Positions 2,359 to 43,576 of a stretch of DNA of 64,000 bases are shown here, piece after piece; positions within the stretch are counted from its first letter, which is position 1; each line of letters starts with the position of its first letter. Below the pieces are notes generated by a model that ran no database searches, had not been told where the DNA came from, and was given only the letters and a program-made list of their open reading frames with translations. The stretch comes from Nitrospira sp. (lineage in GTDB: Bacteria > Nitrospirota > Nitrospiria > Nitrospirales > Nitrospiraceae), in the NCBI GenBank assembly GCA_022226955.1, contig CP092079.1, positions 2,631,043 to 2,695,042 on the forward strand, in the 5' to 3' direction. The position numbers and the translations under genes are program-made.

Positions 2359-2488
2359 GCGAATTCCTTATCGATGGGCAGTTGCTTTTTTTCTGGAGAC
2401 GACGCGCTTATGTAAACGTAGGTATCTGCATTTTGTTTTTCTGGGTCTGTTTGACATAGGTTCATCATCATAACAAGGAGGCCGGTCC

Positions 2489-5400
2489 ATGTTATCTTGC
2501 ACACCACGGGTTTGTGTGCCTACCCGTATGCTCGGCGCGATGGCGGTGGTAGCCCTACTCTGGGCGCCGCTGGCATCCGCTGAGACTTCCAGTTCAGCCG
2601 ATCATGCGACACATCAAGTCGTCATGAATCATCAGCTGCCCGCATGGGCGGAACAACTCAAAGGTCAGACGATTGTCGAAGACGCCATGTCCGGAAAGGG
2701 CGAGCGCTCGGCGATGGTCGAACAGCAGCACCAGCGCATCATGGAGCAGATGAGCCATGATCCGCAGGTTCAGGGCGTCAACACCGGCATGTACAACACC
2801 CAGTCGATGATGCACCAATATGGCGCGGGTGGGCAGGACATGCTGTTGGTGTCCGATCCCCGGGTCGAGCCGGTGGCGCTGGTGGGCGGCGGGAAGTGTC
2901 CGGCGACCGCGCCGGTGAAGCAGTACAACGTGTCCGCGATCAATGTCGAGATCACGCTCAACCAGTGGCTCGATTTCTATCCCGGTTACATGTACGTGCT
3001 GGATGAGAATCTCGACAAAGTCCGCGCGGAAGAAACCAAGAACAGGGAAGCGCGCGACAAGGAAGGCTTCGATCCAGGCGCGGTCATCCCCGGCGTGCAA
3101 GCGCAGTGGATTCAGCCATTGACCATCCGCGCCAATCAGGGCGATTGCGTCAAGATTAAGCTGAGCAACAAGCTCGAAGGCGGCGAAGAAGTCAGCCTCC
3201 ATATCCATGGCTCGGCCATGGTGGTGAGCGCGACGGGCGCCGCGGCGACCACGACCAACTCGGACACGATCGTTGCCAAGGATAAGAGCGGCGATTACGA
3301 GTGGTATATCCACCCGAACACCCAGGAAGGTGTCCGTCAGTTCCACACATTCAGCAACGACCGTGAGCTGACTGTGATGGGGATGTTCGGATCCTTCGTC
3401 GTCGAACCCCGCGGCTCTTCCTATTGGGAAGCGCTGGGCAGCGGCGATGCGACCCCGGCTTCCAGCGGCTGGCAGGTCATGATCAAGAACGGCACGGGCC
3501 CGGATTTCCGCGAGTTCGTGCTCTATTACCACGAAGTCGGCGACGAGGCGTTCCGTCCGTTGAACAAGAAGGGCGACTTCCTTCCGCAGCGCGACCCGCT
3601 GACCGACTCCTACCGCCCGGGCGGCCGCGCGATCAACTATCGCAGCGAGCCATTCGGCATCAACAACATGCATGTGCAGCACGAGTACTTCGGCTTCGAA
3701 GACGAGTCGATGGGCTACAGCTCGTACACATTCGGCGATCCGTCGCCGACGATCCCACGCTCTTACATCGGCGACCCAGCGAAGTTCCGTCTGGTTCACG
3801 GCGGATCGGAAGTGTTCCACAGCCACCATCCGCACGGAGGCACGATTCGATGGCCGCGCAGCCCGCGGGCGATCGATGACATGAATCTCTGGGCGACCAG
3901 CACGAACGGCCCGGTCAAGTATCCGGTCATTCGCGCCAAGACCGACCGTGTCGACGTGGAAGTCATCGGGCCGTCAGAAGCCCTCGATCTGGAAACCGAG
4001 TGCGGTTCCGGTCTGTGCCAGCAGCTGGCCGGCGACTTCCTCTTCCATTGCCATGTGGCGCACCACTATGTCGCGGGCATGTGGGGCTACTGGCGCGTGT
4101 ACAACACGATTCAACAAGGCGACCTGCGGAACGACGTGATGCCGGATCTCCGTGAGTTGCCGGATCGCAAGGGCCGCATCAAGACCCCAATCGCATCCGA
4201 CAAGCTGATCGGTCAGACCGTGGACTGGTTCGGCAAGCAGTTCACGATTACCGACAAGGGCAAGAGCAATTGGAAGGGCAACCCTGCCGTCATCAACATC
4301 AAGGATTGGGTCGCCATGCAGTTGCCCACGATGGGCAAGCCCGGTCATAAAGACGATGAGAAGGGCCAGACCATTTCGTACGATGCCACCGTCTTGGATT
4401 GGACGTGGAACGGCAACGTGGCGATGAGCGAGAAGGAAAGCGAGATCGACAATCCCAAGTACAAGTCGACCCATCCTGGCAAGCGGCATCCGATCATGTT
4501 CGAGCCGATGACCGGGAAGGTGGCCTGGCCGCATCTCACGCCGCACTTCGGCCGGCGGGTGATGTTCTCGCCGAACCACGTCGGCGCGCCCTGGTTGGAG
4601 ATGATCCGCCGGGATGCCAACGGCGAGGAGAGCGTCGATCAAGCGCTTCCTGGTGAAAACGGCGTCTGGAGCCTCTGTCCGGAGAATGCTGGCCGGAAGC
4701 ACTACAATGTGCATTTTGTGAAGATGCCGATCAAGATTGCGAAGGCGCAAGGGAAAGAGCCGGCGGTCATTGATCCGAACGGCTTGATCTATGTGCTCCA
4801 TGAAGAAGAGGCGGCGATCCGCGCCAACGACGATCTGAAGTATCCGTTGGTGGTCCGCGGCAATATCTACGATTGCCTGGACTGGACGCTGACCAGCGAG
4901 TGGGACGACGACGACTACACGAATTTCCAGTCGTCGAAGATCAACACGCACTGGCATTTCTTGCAGTTCGATAACCAGGCCTCTGACGGCGTGATCACCG
5001 GCTTCTCGTACGAGCAGTCGGTCCGCCCGTTCACGATGCTGGAAAAGAAGAACAAGAAGGGCCTTCCGGTTCCGATGAACACCACGCTGACCGCGGCGGC
5101 CAAGAAGGGCGCCAGCAGTCTCGCGGTGAAGAACGCGAAGCAGTACCATGTCGGCACCTTGATTCTCGTCGGGGCCGATAACGTGAAGGGCAACGAAATC
5201 TCCCGCATCAAGGCGATCAACGGCAACACGATCGTCTTGGCGAAGGGACTGAAGAACGACCATCCGGCGAACGACATCGTGACGGTGGAGTTCGTGCGGC
5301 AGCGGTTCTGGGTCGATGCGGACGTCGGGACGGTTTTCTGGCACGACCATGCGTTCGGCGCGACCACCTGGCCGCACGGCGGGTTCGGCACGTTCATCGC

Positions 5401-7348
5401 CGAGCCGGTCGGTTCCACCTATCACGATCCGAAGACCGGCAAGGAAGTGCGGAGCGGCCCCATTGCCGACATCCGGACGGTTGAGCCGGTGGGTCATGGT
5501 GTCAACAACAGCTTCCGCGAATTGATGGTGCAAGTGCACGATACCGTGCCGCACACTGTCAACATCGTGACCGCGGGCAATCCTCCCGGGCAGCCGATCG
5601 AAGTGGCGCTCGAAGCCGGAAAGACCGTGTCGTTCATGATGCCGGAAAAGATCTACATGACGCCGATGCCGTTCTTGAACGGTGGCACGCACACCACCGG
5701 GAGCGGACTCAATTTCAGGGCGGCGCCGATCGCGCAGCGATTGGCGACCAATCCGGATGCGTCGCAGATTTTCAGCAGCAGCATCCACGGCGATCCCTAT
5801 ACGCCGACCTTGCGCGCCTATGTGGGAGACACCATGGTGTTCCGTCTCCTGCATACCCTCATGAACGAGTCGATGGTCTGGACCTTGTCCGGCCACACGT
5901 TCTTGACGGAGCGCTACGCGGGTGACGCCAACCGGAAGAACTCGATTCATATCGGCATTGCCGAGCGCTACGACCTCGTAGTGCCGCAAGCCGGTGGATC
6001 GCGGTTCCAGGCTGGCGACTACATCCACTTCAACGGCCGGTCCTCCAAGTTCTCCGAGGGCGGCTGGGGCATTATCCGTGTCTATGACAAGGAACAAGCG
6101 GACCTGAAGAAGCTCACGTCGGGCTTCTCGACGAAGAATGAAATCCCGAAGGCCTTGCCGGTGTGCCCGGCCGATGCTCCGGTGAAGTCGTTCAACGTGG
6201 TGGCGCTGGATTATCCGTCGATGAAGTTCAACGCGAAGGCCCCTGAGACCATCGAAGTGGACTTCGAGCGGAAGATCCTCATGACCAATCCCGATGCGAA
6301 GATCTATGCCTTGGAGGAGGATACCGCCAAGGTGGCCAGTGGCGCGCAGCCGATGCCGCTGACCCTTCGTGTCAACGTCGGCGATTGTGTCAAGGTGAAT
6401 CTGAAGAACAAGATGAAGGAGAGCAAGGCGTCGTTCTCGGCCATCGGGTTGGCCTTCGACCCGAAGGATTCGCAGGGCGCCAACGTCGGCCATAACCCTG
6501 GCGATCAGACGATCGCTCCGGGCGCAGAGCGGACCTACACGTACTATGCAGATCCGTTCAATGGAGAAACGACGTCGTTGGTCTGGGATTGGGGCAACGC
6601 GATGCTCAATCCGCGCAACGGCCTGTTCGGGGCCATTGTGGTGGGTCCGAAGGGCGCGAAGTATCGCGATCCGAAGACCGGCGCCGATTTGACGAACAAG
6701 AATGCCTGGGCGGCCGACGTGATCCTCGATCACTCGATGCCTGGGATGGAAAATCGGCCGAACTATCGTGACGTGGCGTTGTTCTTCCAAGACGAAGACA
6801 ACATCATCGGCACGAGCTTCATGCCCTATGTGCAGAATGTAGCGGGTTTGACCGGTGTGAATTACCGGTCGGAGCCCTATAAGTTCCGGGAAGAGCAGGG
6901 TTGTTCGCTGGGCAAGGTGTTCCAGCCTTGCAAGGCCGACAAGCCTGAGGATCCGACGACGCCTCTGATCGAGGCGCATGCGGGCGATCCGGTCCGGATT
7001 CACATCCTGGGCGTGAGCAACGAACAGAACGGGATGTTCAGCGTGGAGAAGCATGAGTGGCCGATCGAGCCGTTCATGCGCGGCGCGGATTTGATCAGCG
7101 TCGTGGAGTTCTCCGGGTCTGAGACCATCGATGCCTTCATCCCATCGGCAGGCGGTCCGTACCGCCAGCCGGGCGACTATGTGTACAGCAACCAGCGGTT
7201 GCCGTACTCGCAGTCCGGCCAGTGGGGCTATGTGCGGGTGTTGCCGTCCGGTGACCAGCGGTTGTTGCCGCTGCACGGGGCGGGCGCCGGGATGAAGAGC
7301 GCATCGGTTGAGCAACTGATGCAAGCGATCCCGGTTGCAGCGAAGTAA
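2489..7348 (+). CDS. Giant exported multicopper oxidase, MofA/MnxG-like (possible Mn(II) oxidase)
   Basis: A 1619-residue protein with a signal peptide ending near LASA (residues 1-31) and a strong AAGGAGG ribosome site. Several cupredoxin domains can be seen. Copper motifs occur in the order HxxHxH (His 444, 447, 449), then HCHxxxHxxxxM (520-522, His 526, Met 531; the type 1 site), then HWH (821-823) and HDH (952-954). In ordinary three-domain laccases the HWH/HSH pair comes first, so the order here is permuted. Length, permuted order and phrases such as QASDGVITGFSYEQS recall the very large manganese oxidases MofA and MnxG; I judge this from memory of those families. All four motif groups are intact, so it should form a type 1 centre and a trinuclear cluster. 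It acts in the periplasm or outside the cell. The substrate is not proven: Mn(II), Fe(II) or Cu(I) are all possible. The gene stands alone between its own promoter and terminator. Confidence 0.85.
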   Translation: MLSCTPRVCVPTRMLGAMAVVALLWAPLASAETSSSADHATHQVVMNHQLPAWAEQLKGQTIVEDAMSGKGERSAMVEQQHQRIMEQMSHDPQVQGVNTGMYNTQSMMHQYGAGGQDMLLVSDPRVEPVALVGGGKCPATAPVKQYNVSAINVEITLNQWLDFYPGYMYVLDENLDKVRAEETKNREARDKEGFDPGAVIPGVQAQWIQPLTIRANQGDCVKIKLSNKLEGGEEVSLHIHGSAMVVSATGAAATTTNSDTIVAKDKSGDYEWYIHPNTQEGVRQFHTFSNDRELTVMGMFGSFVVEPRGSSYWEALGSGDATPASSGWQVMIKNGTGPDFREFVLYYHEVGDEAFRPLNKKGDFLPQRDPLTDSYRPGGRAINYRSEPFGINNMHVQHEYFGFEDESMGYSSYTFGDPSPTIPRSYIGDPAKFRLVHGGSEVFHSHHPHGGTIRWPRSPRAIDDMNLWATSTNGPVKYPVIRAKTDRVDVEVIGPSEALDLETECGSGLCQQLAGDFLFHCHVAHHYVAGMWGYWRVYNTIQQGDLRNDVMPDLRELPDRKGRIKTPIASDKLIGQTVDWFGKQFTITDKGKSNWKGNPAVINIKDWVAMQLPTMGKPGHKDDEKGQTISYDATVLDWTWNGNVAMSEKESEIDNPKYKSTHPGKRHPIMFEPMTGKVAWPHLTPHFGRRVMFSPNHVGAPWLEMIRRDANGEESVDQALPGENGVWSLCPENAGRKHYNVHFVKMPIKIAKAQGKEPAVIDPNGLIYVLHEEEAAIRANDDLKYPLVVRGNIYDCLDWTLTSEWDDDDYTNFQSSKINTHWHFLQFDNQASDGVITGFSYEQSVRPFTMLEKKNKKGLPVPMNTTLTAAAKKGASSLAVKNAKQYHVGTLILVGADNVKGNEISRIKAINGNTIVLAKGLKNDHPANDIVTVEFVRQRFWVDADVGTVFWHDHAFGATTWPHGGFGTFIAEPVGSTYHDPKTGKEVRSGPIADIRTVEPVGHGVNNSFRELMVQVHDTVPHTVNIVTAGNPPGQPIEVALEAGKTVSFMMPEKIYMTPMPFLNGGTHTTGSGLNFRAAPIAQRLATNPDASQIFSSSIHGDPYTPTLRAYVGDTMVFRLLHTLMNESMVWTLSGHTFLTERYAGDANRKNSIHIGIAERYDLVVPQAGGSRFQAGDYIHFNGRSSKFSEGGWGIIRVYDKEQADLKKLTSGFSTKNEIPKALPVCPADAPVKSFNVVALDYPSMKFNAKAPETIEVDFERKILMTNPDAKIYALEEDTAKVASGAQPMPLTLRVNVGDCVKVNLKNKMKESKASFSAIGLAFDPKDSQGANVGHNPGDQTIAPGAERTYTYYADPFNGETTSLVWDWGNAMLNPRNGLFGAIVVGPKGAKYRDPKTGADLTNKNAWAADVILDHSMPGMENRPNYRDVALFFQDEDNIIGTSFMPYVQNVAGLTGVNYRSEPYKFREEQGCSLGKVFQPCKADKPEDPTTPLIEAHAGDPVRIHILGVSNEQNGMFSVEKHEWPIEPFMRGADLISVVEFSGSETIDAFIPSAGGPYRQPGDYVYSNQRLPYSQSGQWGYVRVLPSGDQRLLPLHGAGAGMKSASVEQLMQAIPVAAK

Positions 7349-7391
7349 CATCTTTTCTCCTACGTTCGGTAGGAAATAAGAGATGAGATGG

Positions 7392-7427
7392 AAGGGGGAA
7401 GCCATATGGCTTCCCCCTTTTTCTTTC
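7392..7427 (+). terminator. Rho-independent terminator after the multicopper oxidase
   Basis: A perfect 12-base-pair stem (AAGGGGGAAGCC, loop ATAT, GGCTTCCCCCTT) is followed by a run of T residues. It lies 44 bases after the oxidase stop codon. Confidence 0.9.
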
Positions 7428-7488
7428 TAGCGGCCATTTGATACGATAGGCCGATTGAGAAGAGATGCTTCGCATGGAGGTGCCTACT

Positions 7489-8430
7489 GTGAAGAGTCGC
7501 GCAACGCTCAAACGGGCAGGTGGAAGGGTCGTGGTGGCGCTCTGGTTGCTGCTGATTGGAGTGGGGGCTGGATCGGCATTCGCCTATGAAGTAGTGGACG
7601 TGTCGCATGGCGGATCGATTGAAGGTGTGGTGCGTCTGGATGGCGCGGTGCCTGAGCCGAAAGGGTTCAACCTCATCACCTTTCCTGATCCAGTCTACTG
7701 CGGGCGGATCTCTAACGGCCGGGGCTGGCGGCTGTTGCGCGATTTCGTCGTCAGTCCGGATGCCGGGTTAAAAGACGCTATTGTGCTGCTTGAGGGAGTC
7801 GAGGCCGGCAAGCCGTTTGAAACCTCCGTGCCATTGATCGAAGCGCGGGATTGCATCTTTCAGCCGTTCATGACGATTGTCCGAAATGGTCATGCCGTTG
7901 AAGTCATCAATATGGATCCGGTAATGCACGATATTCAGGGTTATGAGACGTCTCCGGAAGCCGGCGCGCGCACGTTGTTCAATACGCCGCTGGTGATGAA
8001 CCATCAACATCACCGGGGCGATATCCATGCGATGCACAATCATGCGCCGGGCGCGTCGCTGGTGGGGCCGGTGTATCTGAATAAGGGTCGCCGGACTTTT
8101 TATATGCAATGTGGGTTTCACGCCTATATGGAAAGCTGGGCGATGGCGGTCAACAATCCCTACTATGCGCTGACCGATAGCACCGGCGCCTTCAAGATCG
8201 ATCACATTCCACCGGGGACCTATCAGTTGGTCGTGTGGCATCCGCAGACCGGCCCTGGCTTGGCGAAGACCGTGACGATTCAGGCAGACGGCAAGATGAC
8301 AGAACAGTTCTCGCTGCAGGCTCCGAAGGGAAACCGTTCCGCGTACAAGGTGATGGACAACCCCCGCTTCGGTCCCGAGTCGTTAGGCTACTCGATCGAC
8401 ATTCAGCCGCTTGTAGAACGCCAGCATTGA
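7489..8430 (+). CDS. Exported cupredoxin-like protein with carboxypeptidase-regulatory-like C-terminal domain
   Basis: About 313 residues. I chose the GTG at 7489 because GGAGG lies eight bases upstream; ATG codons 8 and 5 codons earlier have no such site. A signal peptide ends near SAFA. The middle part has a cupredoxin-like ligand pattern: His 147 (in PVMHDIQ) and C208-x2-H211-x2-M214 (QCGFHAYM). Between them is a His/Met-rich stretch, MNHQHHRGDIHAMHNH, that could bind extra copper. The C-terminal part (GAFKIDHIPPGTYQLVVWHP) is a carboxypeptidase-regulatory-like beta domain. It is a paralogue of the gene at 10686 and follows the multicopper oxidase, so an electron or copper carrier for it is plausible. 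Direct proof of copper binding is lacking. Confidence 0.75.
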   Translation: MKSRATLKRAGGRVVVALWLLLIGVGAGSAFAYEVVDVSHGGSIEGVVRLDGAVPEPKGFNLITFPDPVYCGRISNGRGWRLLRDFVVSPDAGLKDAIVLLEGVEAGKPFETSVPLIEARDCIFQPFMTIVRNGHAVEVINMDPVMHDIQGYETSPEAGARTLFNTPLVMNHQHHRGDIHAMHNHAPGASLVGPVYLNKGRRTFYMQCGFHAYMESWAMAVNNPYYALTDSTGAFKIDHIPPGTYQLVVWHPQTGPGLAKTVTIQADGKMTEQFSLQAPKGNRSAYKVMDNPRFGPESLGYSIDIQPLVERQH

Positions 8431-9071
8431 TGGGATCGTTCATCTCCTCTCGGATAAGGGCCCGAGCCGGGGCAGTCTGTCTCGTGCTCTGTGCTCTGTC
8501 GAGTCTTGTCGCAACGTCTGCCCGGGGCGAAGAACCTGCCACGAAAATCGCGGAGTTTTCCGGAACGCTGCTCAAGCGCGTCGAAGGAAAAAAACATCAG
8601 GCGCAAGTGTTCGCAAAAGGGGATCGAATTCGTTTGGAGTACAAGTACGCGCTGAAAACCGACTACGGATATGCGGCGATTGAGATCGTTCGCTTGGACA
8701 AAGCCGAAACCTGGTATCTTCTCGCGCAGCGGAAAGAGTTGCTAGTGGTACCGGTTGATCCAGACGATGTGTTGCCGGTTCGTCCTGCCTTGCCCGGCGA
8801 GAAAGAGCGGGTCTTGATCGGCGATGCGACGGCTGTGGGGCGGCCCGCGCAGTTGTTTGAAGTCCAGACGGACCGCCATGGACGAGTCGAACGGTTTTTT
8901 GAATGGGTCGATGTGGACGCAGAGATTGTGTTGAAGCTGGTGAGCCGCGATCGAGATTGGTCCGTGGAGTACGAGCGGATTCGATTCTCCGCGCAGCCGG
9001 ATTATTATTTCGATGAACCGCCCGGGTACAAAAAACGGGCAAGCCCAGCGGGGCCCAGGGTGCAAGGGTAA
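8430..9071 (+). CDS. Exported LolA/DUF4412-like protein, unknown function
   Basis: About 213 residues, starting at the ATG at 8430, which overlaps the stop codon of the previous gene by one base (TGATG). This implies translational coupling. A signal peptide ends near TSARG. The rest is rich in beta strands: FSGTLLKRVEGKKHQAQVFAKG and then RIRLEYKY, ending in a tyrosine-rich YYFDEPPGYKKR. The pattern resembles outer membrane lipoprotein-sorting (LolA-like) and DUF4412 proteins that measure or carry hydrophobic ligands, but I cannot assign it surely. The tight coupling to the cupredoxin-like gene suggests that the two products work together in the periplasm. Confidence 0.65.
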   Translation: MGSFISSRIRARAGAVCLVLCALSSLVATSARGEEPATKIAEFSGTLLKRVEGKKHQAQVFAKGDRIRLEYKYALKTDYGYAAIEIVRLDKAETWYLLAQRKELLVVPVDPDDVLPVRPALPGEKERVLIGDATAVGRPAQLFEVQTDRHGRVERFFEWVDVDAEIVLKLVSRDRDWSVEYERIRFSAQPDYYFDEPPGYKKRASPAGPRVQG

Positions 9072-9103: not shown

Positions 9104-10468
9104 ATGACACAACGAATTCGCAGGCAAGGTGGAATGACAGTCGCCGGGCTTTTGTGTTTGCTCGTGTGGCTCAATCCGACGGCTCTTATGGCGGGAGTCT
9201 CCGCTGTTCCCAAAGAAGCCCAGGCAGCCTTTGAGAAGAAGGCCTATCAGCAGGCGCTCGATGAGCTGGCCAAGCTCGACAAAGAAAAAAGTGCGGCTCT
9301 CGATGTCAGACGGCTCAAAATCCGGTCCCTCATCAATATAGGCAAACCGAAAGATGCGCTGGACGAATATGATCTGCTGACGCAATCGCTGAAGCGCGAC
9401 GATGAGCCGGTGTTGCGCGAGGTGGCGCTGGGATTGATTGTGGTGCTGGTGAAGGATATGCGCGAGCAAATGCGTGGCGCGGCCTACACGGCATTGAAGG
9501 AAATCGATGCCGCCGAGGCCATTCCATTTTTCGAAGATGGCTTGAGCGACGGGTCTGGGCCGGTGCGGGTCTTGGCGGTCGAAGGGCTGGGGCGTTCGGA
9601 AGCTGGACGAAAGTCAAAGAAGCTGCGCGGGGCGATTGAGGATCAGGCGGGGCTGGTGAAGGCGCGCGTGGTCAAAGCGCTGGGGCGTTCCGGCGATCCG
9701 TCGGTGCTGCCGCTTATCGAGGCGGCGGCAAAGGATGAGCTCTCGCCGGTGCGGATTGCCTCCTATGCGGCGCTCATCCGGCTGGGGAAGAAAGATGCCT
9801 GGGAGGATTTGCGAAAGGCTGCCGACGTCGCCAATCCTGAGGATCGAACCGATGCCATGCGGGCGATCGCCGATTTGAAAGATCAGCGCGGCGCGGCGCT
9901 CATGACGGAGCTCTTGACCTATAATCAGCCTTCTGTGCGGGGGACGGCGGCCAGAGGTCTTGGGCAGCTTGGGCGGAAAGAGGCCCGAGAGAAGATCGAG
10001 TTGCTCTTAAAGGATCCGATTCCGCCGGTGCGAGAATCCGCCCTGTCGAGCTTGGCCGAGTTGGGTGCGGTCGAATCGGTTCCGGCCATCAAGCCGCTGT
10101 TAGGTGACGGGCAGGTCACGGTGCGGGCCGCAGCGGTGGCCTCCTTGCTTCAACTCGGTCAACCATTTGAGATGGTTGCGGATACGGCGCGATCTTTGGC
10201 CCAGCAAAACGATACCGCGGCCCGCGCGTCGATTGCCTTTGCACTGGGGAAGGCCGTCAAGGCGAATGCCAAGCCCGCCATCGTATTTTTGAGCAGTCTC
10301 ACGGCCGATTCGCTGCCCGGTCCCAAGATCGTTGCGCTTCGTTCCTTGGGCCATATTGGAGATCGTGAGGTAATTCCCTTGATGCTGGAGGGGATGCACG
10401 ATGCCAATGAGGCGGTGCGGGCGACGGCTGCTGGAGGACTGTTGCACCTGCTGCAATCCAAACTATGA
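9104..10468 (+). CDS. Exported HEAT-repeat protein
   Basis: A 454-residue protein with an N-terminal signal peptide (hydrophobic residues about 11-26, ending near LMAG). AAGGAACAG stands before the ATG. From about residue 100 onward it is built of HEAT-like helical repeats, each about 31 residues. The recurring pattern resembles VRxxAxxALGxLG; examples are VRVLAVEGLGRSE, VKARVVKALGRSG, VRGTAARGLGQLG and VRESALSSLAELG. Such repeats form a curved scaffold for protein binding. Residues 30-100 look like TPR-type helices. It follows the cupredoxin-like and LolA-like genes by 32 bases and probably belongs to the same operon. A scaffold role in the periplasm is inferred. Confidence 0.8.
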   Translation: MTQRIRRQGGMTVAGLLCLLVWLNPTALMAGVSAVPKEAQAAFEKKAYQQALDELAKLDKEKSAALDVRRLKIRSLINIGKPKDALDEYDLLTQSLKRDDEPVLREVALGLIVVLVKDMREQMRGAAYTALKEIDAAEAIPFFEDGLSDGSGPVRVLAVEGLGRSEAGRKSKKLRGAIEDQAGLVKARVVKALGRSGDPSVLPLIEAAAKDELSPVRIASYAALIRLGKKDAWEDLRKAADVANPEDRTDAMRAIADLKDQRGAALMTELLTYNQPSVRGTAARGLGQLGRKEAREKIELLLKDPIPPVRESALSSLAELGAVESVPAIKPLLGDGQVTVRAAAVASLLQLGQPFEMVADTARSLAQQNDTAARASIAFALGKAVKANAKPAIVFLSSLTADSLPGPKIVALRSLGHIGDREVIPLMLEGMHDANEAVRATAAGGLLHLLQSKL

Positions 10469-10685: not shown

Positions 10686-11483
10686 ATGAAGAAGGGTGCG
10701 TTATCAGTTGTGTTTGGTGCGGCTGCGGTCGCGTTTGTGGCAGCCCCGTTGCTCGCCAATGCCGGTGGAACCATCGCCGGGAAGGTGACGTATGCCGGGA
10801 AGTCCGAGCAGAAGGAATTTGCCTTCTCCAAGTTCCCGAACCCCAAGTTCTGTCCGAAGAACCCGAACAAGAGCTTGATGGACGGCGATAAGCGGTTCTT
10901 GAAGACCATTGAAGTCGGCAAGGACGGCGGTCTCAAGGGTGCGGTCGTGGCCGTGGTCGATATCGAAGACAAGGCGTTCATGGACGGCTATGCCGGCACG
11001 GATGTCGTCGCGGAATTCTGCGAATTTCTTCCGTTCTCCGGTGTCGTGGTCAACACCAAGAATTTCCGCGCCGTGAACAATGATGCGGATCCCGACGATC
11101 CCAAGTCAACGCTGGGCGTGCTCCATAACCCGCACAGCTTCACCGTGAAGGGCTCCACCTCGGCGACCGGTTTCAACATCGGGTTGGCTAAGAAGGGCGA
11201 CAAGCTCGAGAAGCCGGTGACCTTCCGCGGCGGCGCTGAGAAGGAAGGCTACTATCGGTTGCAGTGCGACCAGCACGAGTTCATGCAGTCCTTCTTCCTC
11301 CCGGTGACGAATGCCCATTATGCCGTGGTGAAGGAAGATGGCACGTTCGAGCTCAAGGATGTGCCGGCTGGCAAGCACAAAGTGGTGGCCTGGCACCCGT
11401 TTGCCGCCAAGGGCAAGAAGATTGAGTTCGAGGTGGATGTTCCTGAGGGCGGCAAGGCCGACCTCAAGGCTGAAATCAAGTAA
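10686..11483 (+). CDS. Exported cupredoxin-like protein, paralogue of the 7489 gene
   Basis: A 265-residue protein with a clear signal peptide (MKKGALSVVFG to LLANA) and an AAGGAGG ribosome site. The fold pattern repeats that of the gene at 7489: His 150 in HNPHSFTVKG, then C194-x2-H197-x2-M200 (QCDQHEFM), then a carboxypeptidase-regulatory-like domain with GTFELKDVPAGKHKVVAWHP. These four ligands fit a type 1 copper site, although the His-to-Met spacing is shorter than in plastocyanin. It is very Lys-rich, unlike its paralogue, and lacks the His/Met-rich insert. A near-perfect promoter upstream and a perfect hairpin downstream make it a single, probably highly expressed gene. Periplasmic copper electron carrier is the best guess. 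Confidence 0.75.
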   Translation: MKKGALSVVFGAAAVAFVAAPLLANAGGTIAGKVTYAGKSEQKEFAFSKFPNPKFCPKNPNKSLMDGDKRFLKTIEVGKDGGLKGAVVAVVDIEDKAFMDGYAGTDVVAEFCEFLPFSGVVVNTKNFRAVNNDADPDDPKSTLGVLHNPHSFTVKGSTSATGFNIGLAKKGDKLEKPVTFRGGAEKEGYYRLQCDQHEFMQSFFLPVTNAHYAVVKEDGTFELKDVPAGKHKVVAWHPFAAKGKKIEFEVDVPEGGKADLKAEIK

Positions 11484-15005: not shown

Positions 15006-16886
15006 ATGCGTCGTCGCAGTTGGATGACAGGTTCCATGGTCGCAGCCGTGTTGTGCGTCACGATCCTGGCCGCGCTGTTGCCTGTGATGGGGAATGGCCC
15101 AAGTCTGTCGTTTGCCGAGGATGCCACGGATCTGTATTTCGGAACGCCAGGTACGCCGCAAGGGCCGCCGGCTCCTGGCCCTCATGAGACGGTCTATTCG
15201 CGGGTCGGTTCCTTTGATAGTCGCCTGCTGGTGTGGTTTGTGACACAGCAGCATACCTACTTCGGTGGATTTGTCCTCGCGTTGCCGCTGTTTTGCGCTT
15301 TGCTGGAGTTTGCTGGGCTCATCACGAAAAAACCGGCCTTGTCGTTGCGCTATGACGGCTTGGCAAGAGACTTGGCGAAGGTCGCGTTGCTGGCGCTTTC
15401 GGTGACCGCCGTGGTCGGAAGCCTTATGCTGTTTATGTTCATCTATTTTTATCCGTCGTTCATGAAGTACATGGGCGGGACGTTCAAGTCGTTTATGCCG
15501 GCCTATGCCATCGTTTTTTTCGGAGAAGCGCTGCTGCTGATCGTCTATTACTATAGTTGGAACCGGATGGCAGAGCGCGGGTTGAAGTGGATCCATGCCG
15601 CGCTCGGCATCCTGACGAATATTTTCGGGACGGCGTTGCTATTGCTGGCGAATTCCTGGTCGGCGTTTATGATGGCGCCGGCTGGCGTCGATGCGCAGGG
15701 CCGGTTCCTCGGGAATGTTTGGCATTTGCTGCACTCGGCTCTCTGGAATCCCCTCAACGTTCATCGCTTTCTGGCAGACATTATGTCCGGCGGCGCGGTG
15801 GTGCTGGCCTATGCCTGTTATCGGTTTTTCACCAGCAAGACCGCCGAAGAGCGGGCCTATTACGATTGGGTGGGCTACATCTTTCTGTTCGTCACGGTTT
15901 GTGCGTTGCTGCCGATGCCGATTGCCGGCTATTGGCTGATGCGTTCGGTGTATGTCTTCAGCCAGAGCATGGGCGTGACGATGATGGGCGGGTTGTTGAC
16001 CTGGCTTTTTGTGGTGCAGGCGCTCTTGATCGGGGCGTTGCTCCTGGGGATCAACTACTACATCTGGCAAAGCATGGCGCGAATCAAGGGCGGCGAGCGG
16101 TACCAGTCGTACTATCAATTCCTGCTGGGTGTGCTGACGCTGGCGCTGTTCATCTGGCTGACGCCGCATACGGTCTTGATGTCGGGGGCGGAAGTGAAGG
16201 CGATGGGCGGAGCGCAGCATCCGGTGGTCGGGAATTATGGGGTGATGTCGGCGAAAAACGGCGCGGTGAATGTGATGATTCTCATCACGGCGCTGAGCTT
16301 TCTCTACTATCGGCGAGCCAATCGAACGATGACGGTGTCCTGGGTGAAGACGGGGAATCTTCTGATCGGGACGTTGTATGCGGTGGGGATTGCAAATGTG
16401 GTCTGGCTGTCGATCTACGGATTCTATTTGCCCGCGAAAATTCGCGTCGGCTTGTCTTCGCCGCAAGCCTTTACGACGTTGGCGGTAATTGTGGCGGGTG
16501 TCGTAATCAACCGCCTCATGTTGAGAGGCTCGATTGTGCATGGCCCGATTCAATGGGGAAAGATTTCGGTGCGCGGCATGGTGGGCCTGTTCGGGCTGGC
16601 GGCGGCGTTTACCTGGGTGATGGGGTTGATGGGGTATATTCGCTCGTCCGGCCGCTTGTCCTGGCATGTCAGCGATCTGATGGCGGATGTGTCCCCTTGG
16701 GCCTTTACGCCGGATCTGGAGTTTGCGTCGAAGATGGTGACGTTGAATATGGTCGTGTTTTGGGCGGCAGTGTTCGCGCTTTTTTGGATGTGCCAGCGTG
16801 GGCAGCAGCCGGTGATGGGAGAAGAGTTTTTCGAGGAGCAGGCGCCGACGCTGGCTCCCTCTTCTTCGCACGAAGCCTCATCTTGA
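15006..16886 (+). CDS. Cytochrome bd-like oxidase, CydA-type subunit (copy 1)
   Basis: A 626-residue membrane protein with an N-terminal hydrophobic export-like segment, then about a dozen membrane helices. It belongs to the CydA superfamily: QQHTYFGGFVLALPLFC has the early heme-ligand His region, and WHLLHSALWNPLNVHR near residue 240 gives a cluster of three His. Further signatures are GYWLMRSVYVFSQSMG and LTPHTVLM, then AMGGAQHPVVGNYGVM. True CydA proteins are about 450-520 residues, so this is longer. Nitrospira genomes are known to hold several such bd-like proteins, one of which has been proposed as the terminal oxidase. No CydB follows. The gene at 20425 is a close paralogue. Whether it reduces oxygen or acts in quinone electron transfer is open. 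Confidence 0.8.
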   Translation: MRRRSWMTGSMVAAVLCVTILAALLPVMGNGPSLSFAEDATDLYFGTPGTPQGPPAPGPHETVYSRVGSFDSRLLVWFVTQQHTYFGGFVLALPLFCALLEFAGLITKKPALSLRYDGLARDLAKVALLALSVTAVVGSLMLFMFIYFYPSFMKYMGGTFKSFMPAYAIVFFGEALLLIVYYYSWNRMAERGLKWIHAALGILTNIFGTALLLLANSWSAFMMAPAGVDAQGRFLGNVWHLLHSALWNPLNVHRFLADIMSGGAVVLAYACYRFFTSKTAEERAYYDWVGYIFLFVTVCALLPMPIAGYWLMRSVYVFSQSMGVTMMGGLLTWLFVVQALLIGALLLGINYYIWQSMARIKGGERYQSYYQFLLGVLTLALFIWLTPHTVLMSGAEVKAMGGAQHPVVGNYGVMSAKNGAVNVMILITALSFLYYRRANRTMTVSWVKTGNLLIGTLYAVGIANVVWLSIYGFYLPAKIRVGLSSPQAFTTLAVIVAGVVINRLMLRGSIVHGPIQWGKISVRGMVGLFGLAAAFTWVMGLMGYIRSSGRLSWHVSDLMADVSPWAFTPDLEFASKMVTLNMVVFWAAVFALFWMCQRGQQPVMGEEFFEEQAPTLAPSSSHEASS

Positions 16887-18019: not shown

Positions 18020-18937
18020 ATGGAAAACAGGGGTGTGCTGATCGGGTCAATCGTTTTTGTCTTCGGGTCGTTTATTCTCCTGATCGCAGGGCTGGTCTAT
18101 GAGTCGTATAAGGCCAAGCAGATGCGGGAGTTGGCCATGAGTATCCCGACGGAGTCGCGTCCGGTAGCGGCGGCGCCGGTTGCGCAGGACTTCTCCATGT
18201 ACAAGACGCGGATTGGCGATGAAGGGCGCGAGATGGTGCAGGTGCCGGCAGGGCCGTTTACGATGGGGAGCAGCGATGGGGATCCAGATGAAGCGCCCGA
18301 GCGGCAGGTGTTCTTGAAAGGGTTCTTTATCGATCGCAACGAAGTGACGCAGGATGAGTATCTGCGTTTCGCCAAAATGACCAAGCGCGCGTTTCCGCGG
18401 ATCGAGGTATTCGAAGACGATCAGTCGAAAGTGTTAAAGCCTGAATTGGCGGCGATGAGCGTCTCATGGAACGATGCGGTTGCCTATTGCAAGTGGGCCG
18501 GCAAGCGATTGCCGACTGAAGCGGAATGGGAAAAAGCGGGACGTGGCGAAGGGAAGCGAAAGTATCCTTGGGGCGATAAATTCATGAATGGTGTGGCTAA
18601 TGTGGATGGGCCGGAGGATGGATATAAGTATCTTGCGCCTCCCGGTTCGTTTGAGGCGGGCCGCAGTCCATACGGATTGCACGATATGACGGGCAATGTG
18701 GCCGAGTGGGTCGCGGATACGTACGATGAGCATTACTATAAAAAAGGCGGGTATCGCGATCCCAAAGGGCCGGATGACGGCGATTTGAAAGTGGTGCGTG
18801 GTGGATCCTGGAGAGAGACCGAGCAAAACGCCCGGCTCTCCAAGCGATTTGCCGCGAAGCATTGGCGGAATGACATCACGATCGGAATTCGTTGCGCGAG
18901 CGATTTGGAGCCGAGCGGCGACGTGGCCGGTCAGTAG
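18020..18937 (+). CDS. Membrane-anchored SUMF1/formylglycine-enzyme-like protein without catalytic Cys
   Basis: A 305-residue protein with an N-terminal membrane anchor (residues 10-30) and a SUMF1 domain from about residue 70. Family marks: VPAGPFTMGSSDGDPDEAP, FFIDRNEVTQDEYLRF, VSWNDAVAYCKWAGKRLPTE, AEWEKAGRG, and the ending TIGIRCASD. Active formylglycine-generating enzymes have a reactive Cys a little before the final GxRCA motif. Here that position reads ETEQNARLSKR without Cys, so oxidation of a sulfatase Cys is unlikely. Such inactive SUMF1 proteins are found as structural or ligand-binding parts, for example next to nitrite reductases. A paralogue follows six bases downstream. Confidence 0.8.
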   Translation: MENRGVLIGSIVFVFGSFILLIAGLVYESYKAKQMRELAMSIPTESRPVAAAPVAQDFSMYKTRIGDEGREMVQVPAGPFTMGSSDGDPDEAPERQVFLKGFFIDRNEVTQDEYLRFAKMTKRAFPRIEVFEDDQSKVLKPELAAMSVSWNDAVAYCKWAGKRLPTEAEWEKAGRGEGKRKYPWGDKFMNGVANVDGPEDGYKYLAPPGSFEAGRSPYGLHDMTGNVAEWVADTYDEHYYKKGGYRDPKGPDDGDLKVVRGGSWRETEQNARLSKRFAAKHWRNDITIGIRCASDLEPSGDVAGQ

Positions 18938-18942
18938 CCGTC

Positions 18943-19887
18943 ATGGAAACCCGATTCAAGGTTGTGTTCCTGATCGTAGTCCTGCTGTTTGCGGCCATGC
19001 CGATTATTGCAATCCTTCGTGGCACAACCACCACCCCCTTTGAAGAGAATGATCCCAGTTCCCACGCGTCGGCAAAGTCAGAAGACCTGCCTGAAGCAGT
19101 TGAGCCGCCGTTAAATGAGGAGATGGTCTTGATTCCTGCCGGAGTTTTTTTGCGCGGGACAGATGTGGGAGGGCTTGACGAAGGGCCACCCAGAGAAATC
19201 TTTCTCGATGCGTTTCAAATCGACCGCTACGAAGTGACAAATTCACAGTATGGACAGTTTGCTTCGGCCACTGGCCATCGGAAGGCGGGGCCTCCGTCGC
19301 GTTATGCCAAGAATGTGTCTAAGATGCGTGGCCCCAATCAGCCGGCTATCTATGTGTCATGGGACGATGCCGTGGCCTATTGTCAGTGGAAGGGGAGGCG
19401 GCTTCCCACAGAGGCGGAGTGGGAAAAGGCTATGCGAGGCCAAGATGGCCGTCTATGGCCTTGGGGGAATACGGAGCAGGCCGACGGGGCTAATTGGGCG
19501 CGCGTCAATGACGGATTCGAAGCGAGCGCCCCTGCAGGATCGTTTAAGGCCGATATGAGTCCGTATGGTGTGATGGATGGGGCTGGGAATGTCATGGAAT
19601 GGGTGCAGGATTGGTATGCCGAAGGGTACTTCAAGGAAGCGCCTGACAGAAATCCGCCAAGTCCTGAGTATGGTGTCTATCGCACGATGCGGGGAGGCGC
19701 GTATACAACGACTGGGGGCGATCTTCGCCTCACCAGTCGGAGTAAAATGGTCCCTGATTTTCGTGATGAAACGATCGGATTTCGGTGCGCGATGTCAGGC
19801 GAAAATAGTGAGGGTGAGACGGCGAATCGAAACGAGAAAGCTACAGAAAATCAAAGTAGTAGAGAATCAGAAACACGGCCAAAATGA
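18943..19887 (+). CDS. Second SUMF1/formylglycine-enzyme-like protein without catalytic Cys
   Basis: A 314-residue protein starting at the ATG at 18943. A membrane anchor (VVFLIVVLLFAAMPIIAIL) is followed by a linker and a SUMF1 domain: IPAGVFLRGTDVGGLDEGPP, YEVTNSQYGQFA, VSWDDAVAYCQWKGRRLPTE, AEWEKAMRG and TIGFRCAMSG. The segment before the last motif, GGDLRLTSRSK, has no Cys, so the active site is again absent. It is a tandem duplicate of the previous gene and shares the order anchor, linker, SUMF1. Its last 47 bases overlap the end of a short reading frame on the other strand. The C-terminal tail is polar and Asn/Glu-rich. Confidence 0.8.
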   Translation: METRFKVVFLIVVLLFAAMPIIAILRGTTTTPFEENDPSSHASAKSEDLPEAVEPPLNEEMVLIPAGVFLRGTDVGGLDEGPPREIFLDAFQIDRYEVTNSQYGQFASATGHRKAGPPSRYAKNVSKMRGPNQPAIYVSWDDAVAYCQWKGRRLPTEAEWEKAMRGQDGRLWPWGNTEQADGANWARVNDGFEASAPAGSFKADMSPYGVMDGAGNVMEWVQDWYAEGYFKEAPDRNPPSPEYGVYRTMRGGAYTTTGGDLRLTSRSKMVPDFRDETIGFRCAMSGENSEGETANRNEKATENQSSRESETRPK

Positions 19888-20360: not shown

Positions 20361-20424
20361 GCTTCTGCGGGTGAGCTTAGGGCTTGTGATGAATCTTTTT
20401 CGTAATGCATTAAGGAGGTATCCC

Positions 20425-22338
20425 ATGGGTCTTGTAACCCGGAAGAAAGTGTTCTCAATCATGGCGCTCTGCGCGATGGTTGGCCTCCTTCTGTTTCCTG
20501 TGGTGGTGTCGCTTCCGTCACTGGCAATCGGTGCGGATGCGGCTGACGCGGAAAAGAAGGACGAGGCGAAGGTTGAGAAGGGGCGCGACGTCTATTATAA
20601 GACGGAGGGTATCGTGGTTGGCGCGCCTGCCCCGAAGACAGTCGATGGCCCGAAGGATTACCCTCGGTATAACTTCGAGAGCCGCGTGCTGCTCTGGTTC
20701 GCGAACCAGCAGCATCTCTACTATGGCAGCTTCGTGCTTGCCGTGCCTATTTTCTGTATGGTCGTCGAGTTCATGGGGGTCGTGACAAAAGATAAGGCAT
20801 TGGCGAAACGGTACGATCAGCTGGCCTATGACTTTATTAAGATCAGTCTTACGGCCTACTCATTGACGGCAGTGCTCGGCGGTATCTTGATTTTCACCTT
20901 CCTGACGCTCTATCCCGCGTTTTTCGGTTACTTGTCCAGTATCTTCCGTCCGGTCATGCACATCTATGCGTTGATGTTCGTGGCTGAGAGCGGCACCCTC
21001 TACATCTACTACTATGGCTGGGACAAGATGAGAGAGGGATTCTTGAAGTGGATCCATCTGAGCATGTCGGTGATTTTGAATGTTATCGGAACGTTGCTCA
21101 TGTTTCTGGCGAACTCGTGGATCGGATTCATGATGTCGCCGGCCGGTGTTGACGAGCAGGGGCGGTTTCTTGGAAATATCTGGCACGTGCTTCATACGGC
21201 ACTGTGGAACCCCCTCAATCTCCATCGCATCCTTGGCAACATGGCGTTCGGTGGCGGCGTCGTTGCTGCCTATGCCGCGTACAAGTTCCTGGCGTCGAAG
21301 ACCGACGAGGATCGCGCTCACTACGATTGGATGGGCTACATTGCGATGGCGCTTGGTGTTGCCTTCTTGATCCCACTGCCGTTCGCTGGCTACTGGCTCA
21401 TGCGCGAGGTGTATGCCTATCGCCAGCAGATGGGCATTACGCTCATGGGTGGATTGTTAGCCTGGCTCTTCATTATTCAGGCCACCATGATCGGCATCTT
21501 GTTCCTGAGCACAAATTATTATTTGTGGCAGGCGATGGGTCGGATGCGCGGAGCGGAGAAATATCAACGCTACATTAAGTATCTGGTATTTCTCCTTGCC
21601 TGCGGCTACTTGGTCTTTATTACCCCGCATACGATGGTCATGACTCCGGCGGAGTTGAAGGCCATGGGTGGGCAGCAGCACCCTGTATTGGGTAACTACG
21701 GCGTTATGTCTGCAAAGAACGGCGGCATCAACGTCATCATTACCACTACGGTGTTGAGCTTTGTGTGGTATATGCGAGGCAATAAAGTGTCGACGGTTTC
21801 GTGGTCGAAGTTTGGGAACATCTTCATGGGATGTTTCTTTTTCTTTGCCTACGTCAATATCATCGGGCTTGCGATTTACGGATACTATATCCCTGCAAAC
21901 GTTCGGGTCGGATTGTCTGTCCCTCAGGTGGCGACAACGCTCTCCTGTCTCTTCTTCATGTTCGCGTTGAATAGCGTCATGATGAAGGGTGCTAAGCAGA
22001 TGGGGCCGATCGAGTGGGGGAAAATTTCTGCCCGCTCGCAGTACGCGCTGATCATGTTGGCGACCGCGTTTACCTGGATGATGGGGTTGATGGGTTACAT
22101 TCGCTCATCGGTCCGTCTTTTCTGGCACGTGAATGAGATCATGCGAGACAATTCGCCGTGGGCCTATACGCACACGGTCGGTTTTGCTGCAAACATGATT
22201 TCCTTTAATGTGCTGTTCTTCTGGATCAGCATTCTCTTTGTATTCTGGCTCGGTAGTTTAGCGGCAAAGAAGGCGCCAGCTGGTGCGAAGGCTGATGTTC
22301 CTGGCAGTGCGGCGCCTCAGCCGGCAGGTAGCCACTAA
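20425..22338 (+). CDS. Cytochrome bd-like oxidase, CydA-type subunit (copy 2)
   Basis: A 637-residue membrane protein. I place the start at ATG 20425 because TAAGGAGGT lies six bases upstream; a frame from 20371 has no such site. An N-terminal export-like helix is followed by a charged linker (ADAEKKDEAKVEKGRD) and about a dozen helices. It shares with the copy at 15006 the marks NQQHLYYGSFVLAVPIFC, WHVLHTALWNPLNLHR, GYWLMREVYAYRQQMG and GGQQHPVLGNYGVM. Conserved His in these regions suit b-type hemes. The genes after it encode c-type cytochromes, so it probably passes electrons between membrane and periplasmic carriers. No CydB gene follows. Terminal oxidase activity is proposed for such Nitrospira proteins but not shown here. 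Confidence 0.8.
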   Translation: MGLVTRKKVFSIMALCAMVGLLLFPVVVSLPSLAIGADAADAEKKDEAKVEKGRDVYYKTEGIVVGAPAPKTVDGPKDYPRYNFESRVLLWFANQQHLYYGSFVLAVPIFCMVVEFMGVVTKDKALAKRYDQLAYDFIKISLTAYSLTAVLGGILIFTFLTLYPAFFGYLSSIFRPVMHIYALMFVAESGTLYIYYYGWDKMREGFLKWIHLSMSVILNVIGTLLMFLANSWIGFMMSPAGVDEQGRFLGNIWHVLHTALWNPLNLHRILGNMAFGGGVVAAYAAYKFLASKTDEDRAHYDWMGYIAMALGVAFLIPLPFAGYWLMREVYAYRQQMGITLMGGLLAWLFIIQATMIGILFLSTNYYLWQAMGRMRGAEKYQRYIKYLVFLLACGYLVFITPHTMVMTPAELKAMGGQQHPVLGNYGVMSAKNGGINVIITTTVLSFVWYMRGNKVSTVSWSKFGNIFMGCFFFFAYVNIIGLAIYGYYIPANVRVGLSVPQVATTLSCLFFMFALNSVMMKGAKQMGPIEWGKISARSQYALIMLATAFTWMMGLMGYIRSSVRLFWHVNEIMRDNSPWAYTHTVGFAANMISFNVLFFWISILFVFWLGSLAAKKAPAGAKADVPGSAAPQPAGSH

Positions 22339-41466: not shown

Positions 41467-41559
41467 ACGCAGGCCTGTGATAGGTCAGAGTAGTGTTTGT
41501 TTGGAAGTTATGTGAGTTGTGAGGCCTGGGTTGATTCCCACATCCAGGAGACAATTGTC

Positions 41560-42528
41560 ATGACGAGTAAACAATCGGTGCAGACTGCAACATCTACCGC
41601 TGCCGCCGTTATTCCTAATGCCCCGACGATCAAGGACTCTCCGGCGGTCGAGAGGGCTCTCAACCGCAGCAAGTTGTATCTCCTTGTTTCCTGGAGTCTT
41701 TTGTATCCAGAAGACGAAGAGTTCCTCGATTACTTGCAGTGCGGGGAGTTTGTGGAAGACGGTCGAGCGGCGCTGGACGCCCTTCAGGCCGCTCTGGATG
41801 CCAACCAAGGCGGAGATCGCGCGAAGCTGAAGCTGGCTTCCCTGAAAAAGCAGTTGGATAATGTTGAAAAGTTGGTTGCCTCAGAATGTGTGAACTGGCA
41901 GTTGAGCGATCTGCAGTCTGAGCATCGGCGTGTATTCAGCAATGTGATTACGCTGGATTGCCCTCCGTACGAAACTCTCTTCGGTAACGATCACGTGTTT
42001 GCGCAATCCCATACCATGGGCGACATTGCCGGCTTCTACAAGGCGTTCGGCGTCGAGTTGTCGAAGGATATTCATGAGCGTCTCGACCATCTCAGTGTCG
42101 AGTTCGAATTCATGCATTTCCTGGCCTACAAAGAATCGTATTCCCGATGCCATGACGGTGCCGACAAGACGCAGATCGTCGTGGATGCGCAGAAGAAATT
42201 CGTTAAGAATCATATTGGGCGCTGGGTGCCGCTGTTTTGCCGGATGCTGACCAAGAAGTCGGATTCCGGTCTATTCAAGATCGTCTCGGATATGACCTCC
42301 GATTGGATTGAATTCGAAACGGCGTTTCTAGGAGTCACCCCGCAGCCGTACACGGAAACAGATTATCGTCCGGCGACCTTTAATTCGCCCGAAGGTCAGA
42401 CGTACGAGTGCGGTGCGCAGGACCAGGGAAATGAGCTGAGCGTATTGCTGAACGAAGTCGGCGCACAGTCCTTCCTGGATGTGAAGGACAAGGACAAGGA
42501 GGAGGGCGGACCGGTCGGAACCGCGTAG
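41560..42528 (+). CDS. TorD/NarJ-like molybdoenzyme chaperone
   Basis: About 322 residues starting at ATG 41560, with AGGAGA about nine bases upstream. The central region is all-helical with the TorD/DmsD/NarJ pattern: LLVSWSLLYPEDEEF, LDCPPYETLFGNDHVF and GDIAGFYKAFGVEL, then LDHLSVEFEFMHFLAYKE. Such chaperones bind the Tat signal or the apoenzyme and guard cofactor insertion. In Nitrospira they are linked to nitrite oxidoreductase. The N-terminal 50 residues and the C-terminal tail extend beyond the usual 200-residue core. It has its own promoter. The next gene, 94 bases downstream, is a gamma-like heme-b subunit, which supports a role in assembly of that complex. Confidence 0.85.
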   Translation: MTSKQSVQTATSTAAAVIPNAPTIKDSPAVERALNRSKLYLLVSWSLLYPEDEEFLDYLQCGEFVEDGRAALDALQAALDANQGGDRAKLKLASLKKQLDNVEKLVASECVNWQLSDLQSEHRRVFSNVITLDCPPYETLFGNDHVFAQSHTMGDIAGFYKAFGVELSKDIHERLDHLSVEFEFMHFLAYKESYSRCHDGADKTQIVVDAQKKFVKNHIGRWVPLFCRMLTKKSDSGLFKIVSDMTSDWIEFETAFLGVTPQPYTETDYRPATFNSPEGQTYECGAQDQGNELSVLLNEVGAQSFLDVKDKDKEEGGPVGTA

Positions 42529-42622
42529 GTTTCGAGCAATTATTTCTAGTTTTCTCAACGGCAGTCATCGTTATTTGGGCGATGTCATTTAATCATTAAT
42601 TTTGAGAGGAGGGATTAGCTGT

Positions 42623-43576
42623 ATGAGAGTTGTGCAGACGACCAACAAGAAATTGGTGTTTAGCATTCTGCTCTCTGCCCTCGTCGTTGGCGTCATGCTG
42701 ACGATCGGGCAAGTGCCCCTGGCTGTGAGCCAGCCGGTGACGATTCCGGCGAAGGCAGTCAAGGGACCGATTCCCATGGATGGCGCGAATCCCGTGTGGG
42801 AGAGCGTCCCTGGTGTGATCGTTCCGTTGAGCGGTCAGTTGATTACCACCCCGATGCATCCGAACATCTCGGTGAAGTCGGTGTTCGTGAAGGCCATGAG
42901 CAACGGCAAAGAGCTCGGCTTGCGCGTGGAGTGGAACGATCAGACGAAGAATGACACAGCCATCGGTCCGCAGGATTTCCGCGACCAGGTTGCGATCATG
43001 TTCCCGGTCACCACGTCGGGTGCGCCGCCGTTCCAGTGTATGGGACAGTCTGGCGGAACCACCAACATCTGGCGATGGAACGCGGAATGGCAGAAGGATC
43101 TTGGCAAAGACAGCGCGGGTATGTGGGACGTGGACGACCAGTACCCGGGCATTTTCTGGGATTACTATTTTGAAGAACCGGCCGGCGGCGTGACCTATCC
43201 TGATCGGATCGGTCGGAGCCTTGGGCCGTTCAACTCAGGTATCTGGTCCGGTAACATCATGTCCGATCCGACGCTCCGCGTGAGCTCGGTGGAAGACCTG
43301 AATGCCAACGGATTCAGCACCCTCACCACCCAGACGCATCAGGATGTGTTGGGGAACGGTGTGTGGGAGCCGTCAGGCTCAGTCAAGGGTGGCGGTTACA
43401 CTGGCCCGACCTGGCGCGTGGTCATCAAGCGCAGCTTGGAGACCAGCGATGCGAACGACACGCAGTTCAAGGCGGGAATGTCTGTGCCCATCGCGTTTGC
43501 GGTGTGGGATGGGAACAACATTGAGCGCAACGGTATGAAGGCGCTCTCCACCTGGTTCACGCTCAAGCTTCCGTGA
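42623..43576 (+). CDS. Exported heme-b subunit, ethylbenzene dehydrogenase/NXR gamma-like
   Basis: About 317 residues from ATG 42623, with GAGGAGGG ten bases upstream. The signal peptide ends near LAVSQP. The family belongs to the gamma subunits (EbdC, SerC, ClrC type) that bind one heme b by Met and Lys. Here Met 140 in QCMGQSG and Lys 306 in NGMKALSTWF stand at the expected places. Other marks are RVEWNDQTKND and FRDQVAIMFP, and VWDGNNIERNGMK near the end. It should pass electrons between an alpha-beta molybdoenzyme and a cytochrome c in the periplasm. It follows the chaperone gene and is closed by a terminator. The paralogue at 49360 shares the ligands. Confidence 0.85.
   Translation: MRVVQTTNKKLVFSILLSALVVGVMLTIGQVPLAVSQPVTIPAKAVKGPIPMDGANPVWESVPGVIVPLSGQLITTPMHPNISVKSVFVKAMSNGKELGLRVEWNDQTKNDTAIGPQDFRDQVAIMFPVTTSGAPPFQCMGQSGGTTNIWRWNAEWQKDLGKDSAGMWDVDDQYPGIFWDYYFEEPAGGVTYPDRIGRSLGPFNSGIWSGNIMSDPTLRVSSVEDLNANGFSTLTTQTHQDVLGNGVWEPSGSVKGGGYTGPTWRVVIKRSLETSDANDTQFKAGMSVPIAFAVWDGNNIERNGMKALSTWFTLKLP

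Follow-up and report, generated by a model that had tools for sequence, protein, structure and literature searches.

The oxidase locus and its neighbours

The stretch of DNA analysed here (the window, 64,000 nucleotides, G000:C1:2631043-2695042) was taken from a single-contig, 3.6-Mb genome. According to the ORF list of the window, a multicopper oxidase (MCO) of 1619 aa is encoded at 2489-7348 (+). A ribosome-binding site AGGAGG was read at 2476..2481 (+), 7 nt upstream of the ATG, and residues 1-32 (2489..2584, +; '...VALLWAPLASA/ET', by eye from the translation) were predicted as a Sec signal peptide. Antisense to the gene lies an open frame of 1143 codons (3974-7405, -), which is most likely no gene but a consequence of codon usage.

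Directly downstream, an exported cupredoxin-like protein of 321 aa, hereafter the partner, is encoded at 7465..8430 (+; alignment, Pfam), with a transthyretin/CarboxypepD_reg-like domain at its C-terminus (Pfam). Its stop codon is overlapped by the likely ATG, at 8430, of a small exported protein with no assigned function (8430..9071, +; ORF), which is conserved beside the oxidase unit in relatives. There follow a HEAT-repeat/TPR protein (9104..10468, +; Pfam, synteny), a second cupredoxin-like protein of the partner family with 265 aa (10686..11483, +; alignment, synteny), and two cytochrome bd-like oxidase subunits I (15006..16886, + and 20371..22338, +; both Pfam PF01654). A TorD/NarJ-like chaperone (41497..42528, +; Pfam PF02613) and an NxrC-like haem protein of the EB_dh family (42602..43576, +; Pfam PF09459) were located further downstream, and the window also contains DUF420 and cytochromes c on this side. 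In another genus (G055/L167) the region between the oxidase and the bd-like gene is preserved.

A putative MCO resembling the Mn oxidase of Bacillus SG-1 was described in 2013 (PMC3578206) in Nitrospina gracilis and 'Ca. Nitrospira defluvii', beside NXR, bd-like oxidases, cytochromes, two cupredoxin-like proteins, TorD and NxrC, with the suggestion of Mn(III)-mediated protection from superoxide. As far as that cluster is set out in the passages drawn on here, the neighbour content of the window matches it, minus NXR, which is located elsewhere in the genome. Going by the description in these passages rather than by the sequences of the 2013 proteins, the window oxidase is very probably of the same kind and would be their orthologue. 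The earlier note had called a metal-oxidising route of this sort not usually linked to nitrifiers, a view contradicted by the same passages and by the listing of a six-domain oxidase from Nitrosomonas europaea in PMC3600357. The PMC3578206 passages make no mention of three paralogues, recurrent partner adjacency, class-wide presence or clade separation. To the known oxidase and cluster of Nitrospina and Nitrospira the present analysis adds the distribution across the class, the placement in a clade of its own marked by distinct second-shell signatures, and the type-1 cupredoxin-like partner that recurs beside the oxidase.

The nitrifier status of the genome was assessed from its nxrA, of which the first 46 aa (93% identical) are readable before a run of 100 N (L188, G000:C1 around 2215575). 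In the single-contig assembly the nitrite oxidoreductase locus is thus interrupted by a scaffold gap. Since nxrA is cut by this gap and is carried whole by relatives, a genome without NXR, and hence no nitrifier, was ruled out, and we infer from these sequences that the organism is a nitrite oxidiser. A search of the genome for AMO gave no match, nor did its control, so this result does not count against comammox; PF14711, used as NXR beta marker, gave no match and was uninformative as a marker.

Copper ligands, domain architecture and nearest structures

Four copper motifs were located in the translation. The HxxHxH motif HSHHPH (residues 444-449; 3818..3835, +) and the HCHxxxHxxxxM motif HCHVAHHYVAGM (residues 520-531; 4046..4081, +; motif reading, alignment) are situated in domain 2, the HWH motif (residues 821-823; 4949..4957, +) and the HDH motif (residues 952-954; 5342..5350, +) in domain 3. 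HSHHPH is predicted to supply both type-1 and trinuclear ligands; within the second motif Cys521, His526 and Met531 are the predicted type-1 ligands and His520 and His522 the predicted trinuclear ones, and HWH and HDH are likewise assigned to the trinuclear site. In an alignment of 68 relatives every ligand position was identical in all 28 Nitrospiria homologues, and likewise in the 38-39 non-Nitrospiria rows covering them, with the exception of the axial Met, which is Phe in 2 rows. Because the ligand positions are kept throughout the Nitrospiria and the outgroup rows, the motifs are not a chance reading of the sequence, and the description of a 1619-residue protein with four intact motifs given in the earlier note is borne out. 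An extra HxH (HIHGS at 238-240) was absent from both paralogues of the oxidase.

Pfam assigned scattered Cu-oxidase_3 and Cu-oxidase_2 stretches to the oxidase and nothing else. Self-comparison with hhalign resolved three tandem cupredoxin pairs (~140-560, 725-1212 and 1222-1596; 25-27% identity, probability 99.9-100%), which is the architecture of the bacterial six-domain MCOs (MnxG-like superfamily). In the same mapping Asn1182 and Asn1568 take the place of Cys521, and in the third repeat Ser1317/Trp1366 that of His821/His952. At sequence level the full ligand set is therefore present solely at the interface of domains 2 and 3, the other interfaces being substituted, and a single trinuclear site at this interface with a type-1 site in domain 2 is predicted.

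The type-1 group precedes the HxH/HDH group, as the earlier note had stated in calling the order permuted and reminiscent of Mn oxidases. This order is a family trait, since MnxG, the Leptothrix homologues and other relatives have it as well, and PMC3600357 reports that every bacterial six-domain oxidase in its analysis, including MnxG, has its trinuclear site between domains 2 and 3, the corresponding domains in ceruloplasmin being 1 and 6. The resemblance to Mn oxidases thus stands, the exceptional placement does not, and a true motif permutation was ruled out by the alignment and by PMC3600357.

A sequence search of the PDB returned MnxG (9bxa) as the best match (E=2.6e-81, 277 bits), followed by a small laccase at 22 bits (~2e-4); with a profile of the three paralogues, MnxG was matched at E=3.2e-112. 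The entry 9bxa is titled Mnx H340A, and the Ala of its HCHLYPA motif aligns with His526 of the oxidase, as expected if His526 is the type-1 histidine. AlphaFold runs on residues 140-1212 and 335-1010 gave poor models (mean pLDDT 51 and 49, respectively), because the usable homologues are distant only (~26% identity). In fold searches, the 140-1212 model retrieved MnxG first (E=1.3e-41 over 1118 columns), ceruloplasmin second and then factors V/VIII, and the 335-1010 model retrieved MnxG as its sole match at E below 0.001. The first of these searches supports the fold class and nothing finer; as both models are poor, the meeting of the four motifs in one copper site is predicted by homology. 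A laccase/CueO/CotA type was ruled out by the six domains and by the gap between ~22 and 277 bits, and with it membership among the two- or three-domain laccases.

Clade, distribution and the recurrent partner

The profile search and tree proposed in the earlier note qualified its statement that the protein recalls MnxG and MofA more than laccases: MnxG is the nearest relative with a solved structure, but the oxidase scored 135 bits against the curated cut-off of 3100 in the NCBIfam MnxG equivalog model NF041487 and so falls outside that equivalog. With the same model the Leptothrix proteins scored ~720-740 bits and a Halomonas protein 1911. In a quick tree (68 rows, 1312 columns, LG+G4, no bootstrap, midpoint root) the Nitrospiria proteins formed a single clade (SH-aLRT 100) whose sister is a Streptomyces plasmid protein (L038), and a long branch separates these from Priestia MnxG, the Leptothrix/Sphaerotilus MofA-type proteins, a Nitrosomonas mobilis protein and all remaining rows. 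By this midpoint-rooted placement the oxidase stands outside the MnxG/MofA clade, in a separate, fully supported one.

The residues adjoining the copper ligands differ systematically between the two sides of the tree: HSHHPHGG..RW, HCHVAHHY, QFD and FWHDHAFG..W on the Nitrospiria side correspond to HVFHLHAHQW, HCHxYPHF, KFD and FTHDHFGP..Q on the other. The MnxG/MofA signatures HxxHxHxHQW, HCHxYPHF and HxHLVKFD are accordingly replaced in the oxidase by HSHHPHGG..RW, HCHVAHHY and H.HF.QFD. Clade and second-shell signatures that separate the groups in this way call for caution in naming every metagenomic giant oxidase MnxG or MofA. Two proteins of ~2200 aa from Nitrospirota MAGs (L078, L079) were placed in the MnxG-like clade beside Halomonas, outside the Nitrospiria clade, and the six-domain oxidase of the ammonia oxidiser Nitrosomonas mobilis (L114), in contrast to that of Nitrospira, belongs to the MnxG/MofA clade proper.

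Within 396 sampled genomes of the phylum, oxidase matches were obtained in 163 of the 164 genomes of the same class, taken as Nitrospiria (a name inferred from kinship ranks), and in 1 of the 232 others, where the match was weak. The oxidase is a core gene of the class, and such retention, with up to several copies and usually together with the partner, implies that it must matter to these organisms. A scan of named genomes yielded 79 oxidase loci from many phyla.

The genome examined has three oxidase copies, the two paralogues being 68% and 52% identical to the window copy, and downstream of every copy lies a gene whose product is an exported cupredoxin-like protein. Among 52 assessable Nitrospiria loci the partner is directly downstream of the oxidase in 46, and at least one of the six remaining loci has it one gene further (G189). 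Outside the class a partner relative adjoins the oxidase in one outgroup locus only (L056, Planctomycetota, 4308-5075), where it is divergently oriented; the wider partner family was found, with lower scores, in 42 of the 232 genomes of the phylum's other classes. An alignment of 20 members, including the protein at 10686-11483, showed invariant His155, Cys216, His219 and Met222, which make up a type-1 copper set, and the only other invariant His, Cys or Met residues of this alignment are Cys79, Cys130 and one C-terminal His. The partner may accordingly be read as a putative copper protein; the solved blue-copper domain 5fc9 matches it only weakly (E=0.29).

The surroundings of the three copies vary. 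Paralogue 3 adjoins a CusA/CzcA efflux system and an ArsR/SmtB-type regulator gene; on the opposite strand after this paralogue and its partner lie the CusA/CzcA-family heavy-metal efflux pump and adaptor (L006 15101-19397). Paralogues 2 and 3, like several relatives, have sigma-54-dependent activators upstream (L005 13121-14515; L006 1554-6350), accompanied at copy 3 by a sensor kinase, and the window copy has divergent NarL/LuxR-type regulators in their place. In a genome of the same genus (G145, single contig; L160, L161) three oxidase copies lie inside ~30 kb. Sulfatase-modifying-factor/FGE-like genes were noted near all three copies (window 18020-18937 and 18892-19887; L005 4548-5537; L006 7044-7934) and several times in relatives. 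FGEs are copper enzymes, so their link to the oxidases may not be random. Among the ORFs around the three copies no match was found to MnxE/MnxF-like genes, the adjacent subunit genes of the Bacillus Mnx complex; together with score and clade this rules out identity with the MnxG equivalog or the Mnx complex.

Proposed function and comparison with known systems

The oxidase is most likely a periplasmic, O2-reducing metallo-oxidase, that is, a secreted six-domain MCO of the bacterial MnxG-like superfamily, in which the three cupredoxin pairs would form a ceruloplasmin-like ring; the fold class is as found above, and the ring geometry is a prediction. The invariant ligands at the interface of domains 2 and 3 would hold one type-1 copper (His444, Cys521, His526, Met531) and one trinuclear cluster (8 His). 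By analogy with the family, electrons from one-electron donors would enter at the type-1 copper and pass over the Cys-His bridge to the cluster, where O2 would be reduced to water. The donor would most likely be a low-valent transition metal, with Mn(II) as first candidate and Cu(I) or Fe(II) next, and the product would serve protection, either against superoxide by way of Mn(III), the 2013 proposal, or through metal detoxification, rather than energy. The partner most likely exchanges copper or electrons with the oxidase, judging by its adjacency and type-1 ligand set. We somewhat favour the view that the donor is a low-valent metal (Mn(II), Cu(I) and Fe(II) taken jointly) and the benefit protection. 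The metallo-oxidase reading is supported by the invariant ligands, MnxG as closest structure with ceruloplasmin next by fold, the three repeats with copper residues lost at the other interfaces, the class-wide presence, the partner, the 2013 cluster and the efflux system at paralogue 3; the long branch from known Mn oxidases, the differing ligand-side residues, the lack of MnxE/F neighbours and the poor quality of both models speak against it. No measured activity of a Nitrospiria oxidase was found in the literature searched. An energy route, as raised in the earlier note, is not indicated by anything found, and an energy-conserving role has no support; PMC9040806 remarks that where an MCO hands electrons straight to O2, it is not clear how energy would be conserved.

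Two narrower readings partly overlap with the metallo-oxidase explanation. Mn(II) is a plausible donor, and the oxidase might be a genuine MnxG/MofA-type Mn(II) oxidase whose main job is the formation of Mn(III/IV) oxides: MnxG is by far its best solved-structure match and has all copper ligands in common with it. Against this stand the fully supported placement outside the MnxG/MofA clade, the score far below the MnxG cut-off, the differing second shell, the three loci without MnxE/F-like neighbours, and the universality of the gene in a class in which Mn-oxide formation is not known as a general trait, so that we regard this reading as unlikely. The oxidase might also act on Cu(I) or Fe(II) in metal homeostasis, in the manner of ceruloplasmin or CueO, with the partner as copper carrier. 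Ceruloplasmin as second-best fold, the efflux system and ArsR/SmtB-type regulator gene beside paralogue 3, and Streptomyces and Rubrobacter homologues near CopC or CopC/CopD genes would fit this, but the window copy lies in a respiratory and not a metal-efflux neighbourhood, and we consider it an improbable account as well.

That respiratory neighbourhood suggests a different role, in which the type-1 site would be fed by a cupredoxin or by cytochromes of the NXR/bd-like cluster and the oxidase would act as an O2-reducing outlet or electron relay. Clustering with bd-like oxidases, cytochromes c, two cupredoxins and NxrC/TorD-like genes, the preservation of the stretch up to the bd-like genes in G055, and the class-wide co-occurrence of oxidase and partner point this way; as no bd-like genes lie close to paralogues 2 and 3 within the stretches read, and direct electron transfer to O2 lacks the clear energy-conservation path referred to above (PMC9040806), such a respiratory accessory appears very unlikely. 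Quite unlikely, too, is a more specific proposal in which oxidase and partner form a class-specific two-protein system whose changed second shell would reflect a different donor from the one used by MnxG/MofA (such as the partner, or a metal complex carried by it) and which would link metal/copper redox to the nitrite-oxidising chain. For the metallo-oxidase reading preferred here, the identity of the donor decides the consequence: if Mn(II) is oxidised, manganese oxidation would be a further trait of a widespread nitrifier group, and if Cu(I) is oxidised or the cupredoxin donates electrons, the oxidase would bear on copper and oxygen handling by copper-dependent nitrifiers.

Compared with known systems, the oxidase is like MnxG of Bacillus (9bxa, Bacillus sp. 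PL-12; Priestia homologue L041) in its six cupredoxin domains, the motif order, and one type-1 and one trinuclear site at domains 2/3, whereas MnxG is shorter (~1220 vs 1619 aa), is found with MnxE/F-like small proteins, has other second-shell residues and belongs to a separate clade. The MofA-type oxidases of Leptothrix/Sphaerotilus (L088, L095, L089, L127) are closer in size (~1600 aa) and are also six-domain proteins with the same motif order, but sit in the other clade; for L. discophora two loci were obtained, with mofA itself assigned to neither, and in the mof operon as published (PMC8218464) mofB and mofC are found in place of the cupredoxin partner. The homologue on the plasmid of Streptomyces sp. 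NBC_00335 (L038), although in the sister position and with the GG..RW and QFD signatures in common, has 1772 aa, is followed by a CopC gene in place of a Nitrospiria-type partner, and is uncharacterised. Human ceruloplasmin (1kcw) has the six-domain ring fold in common with the oxidase. Each member of the Manganitrophaceae has two 'novel MCOs' (PMC9040806), and these may belong to the Nitrospiria oxidase clade.
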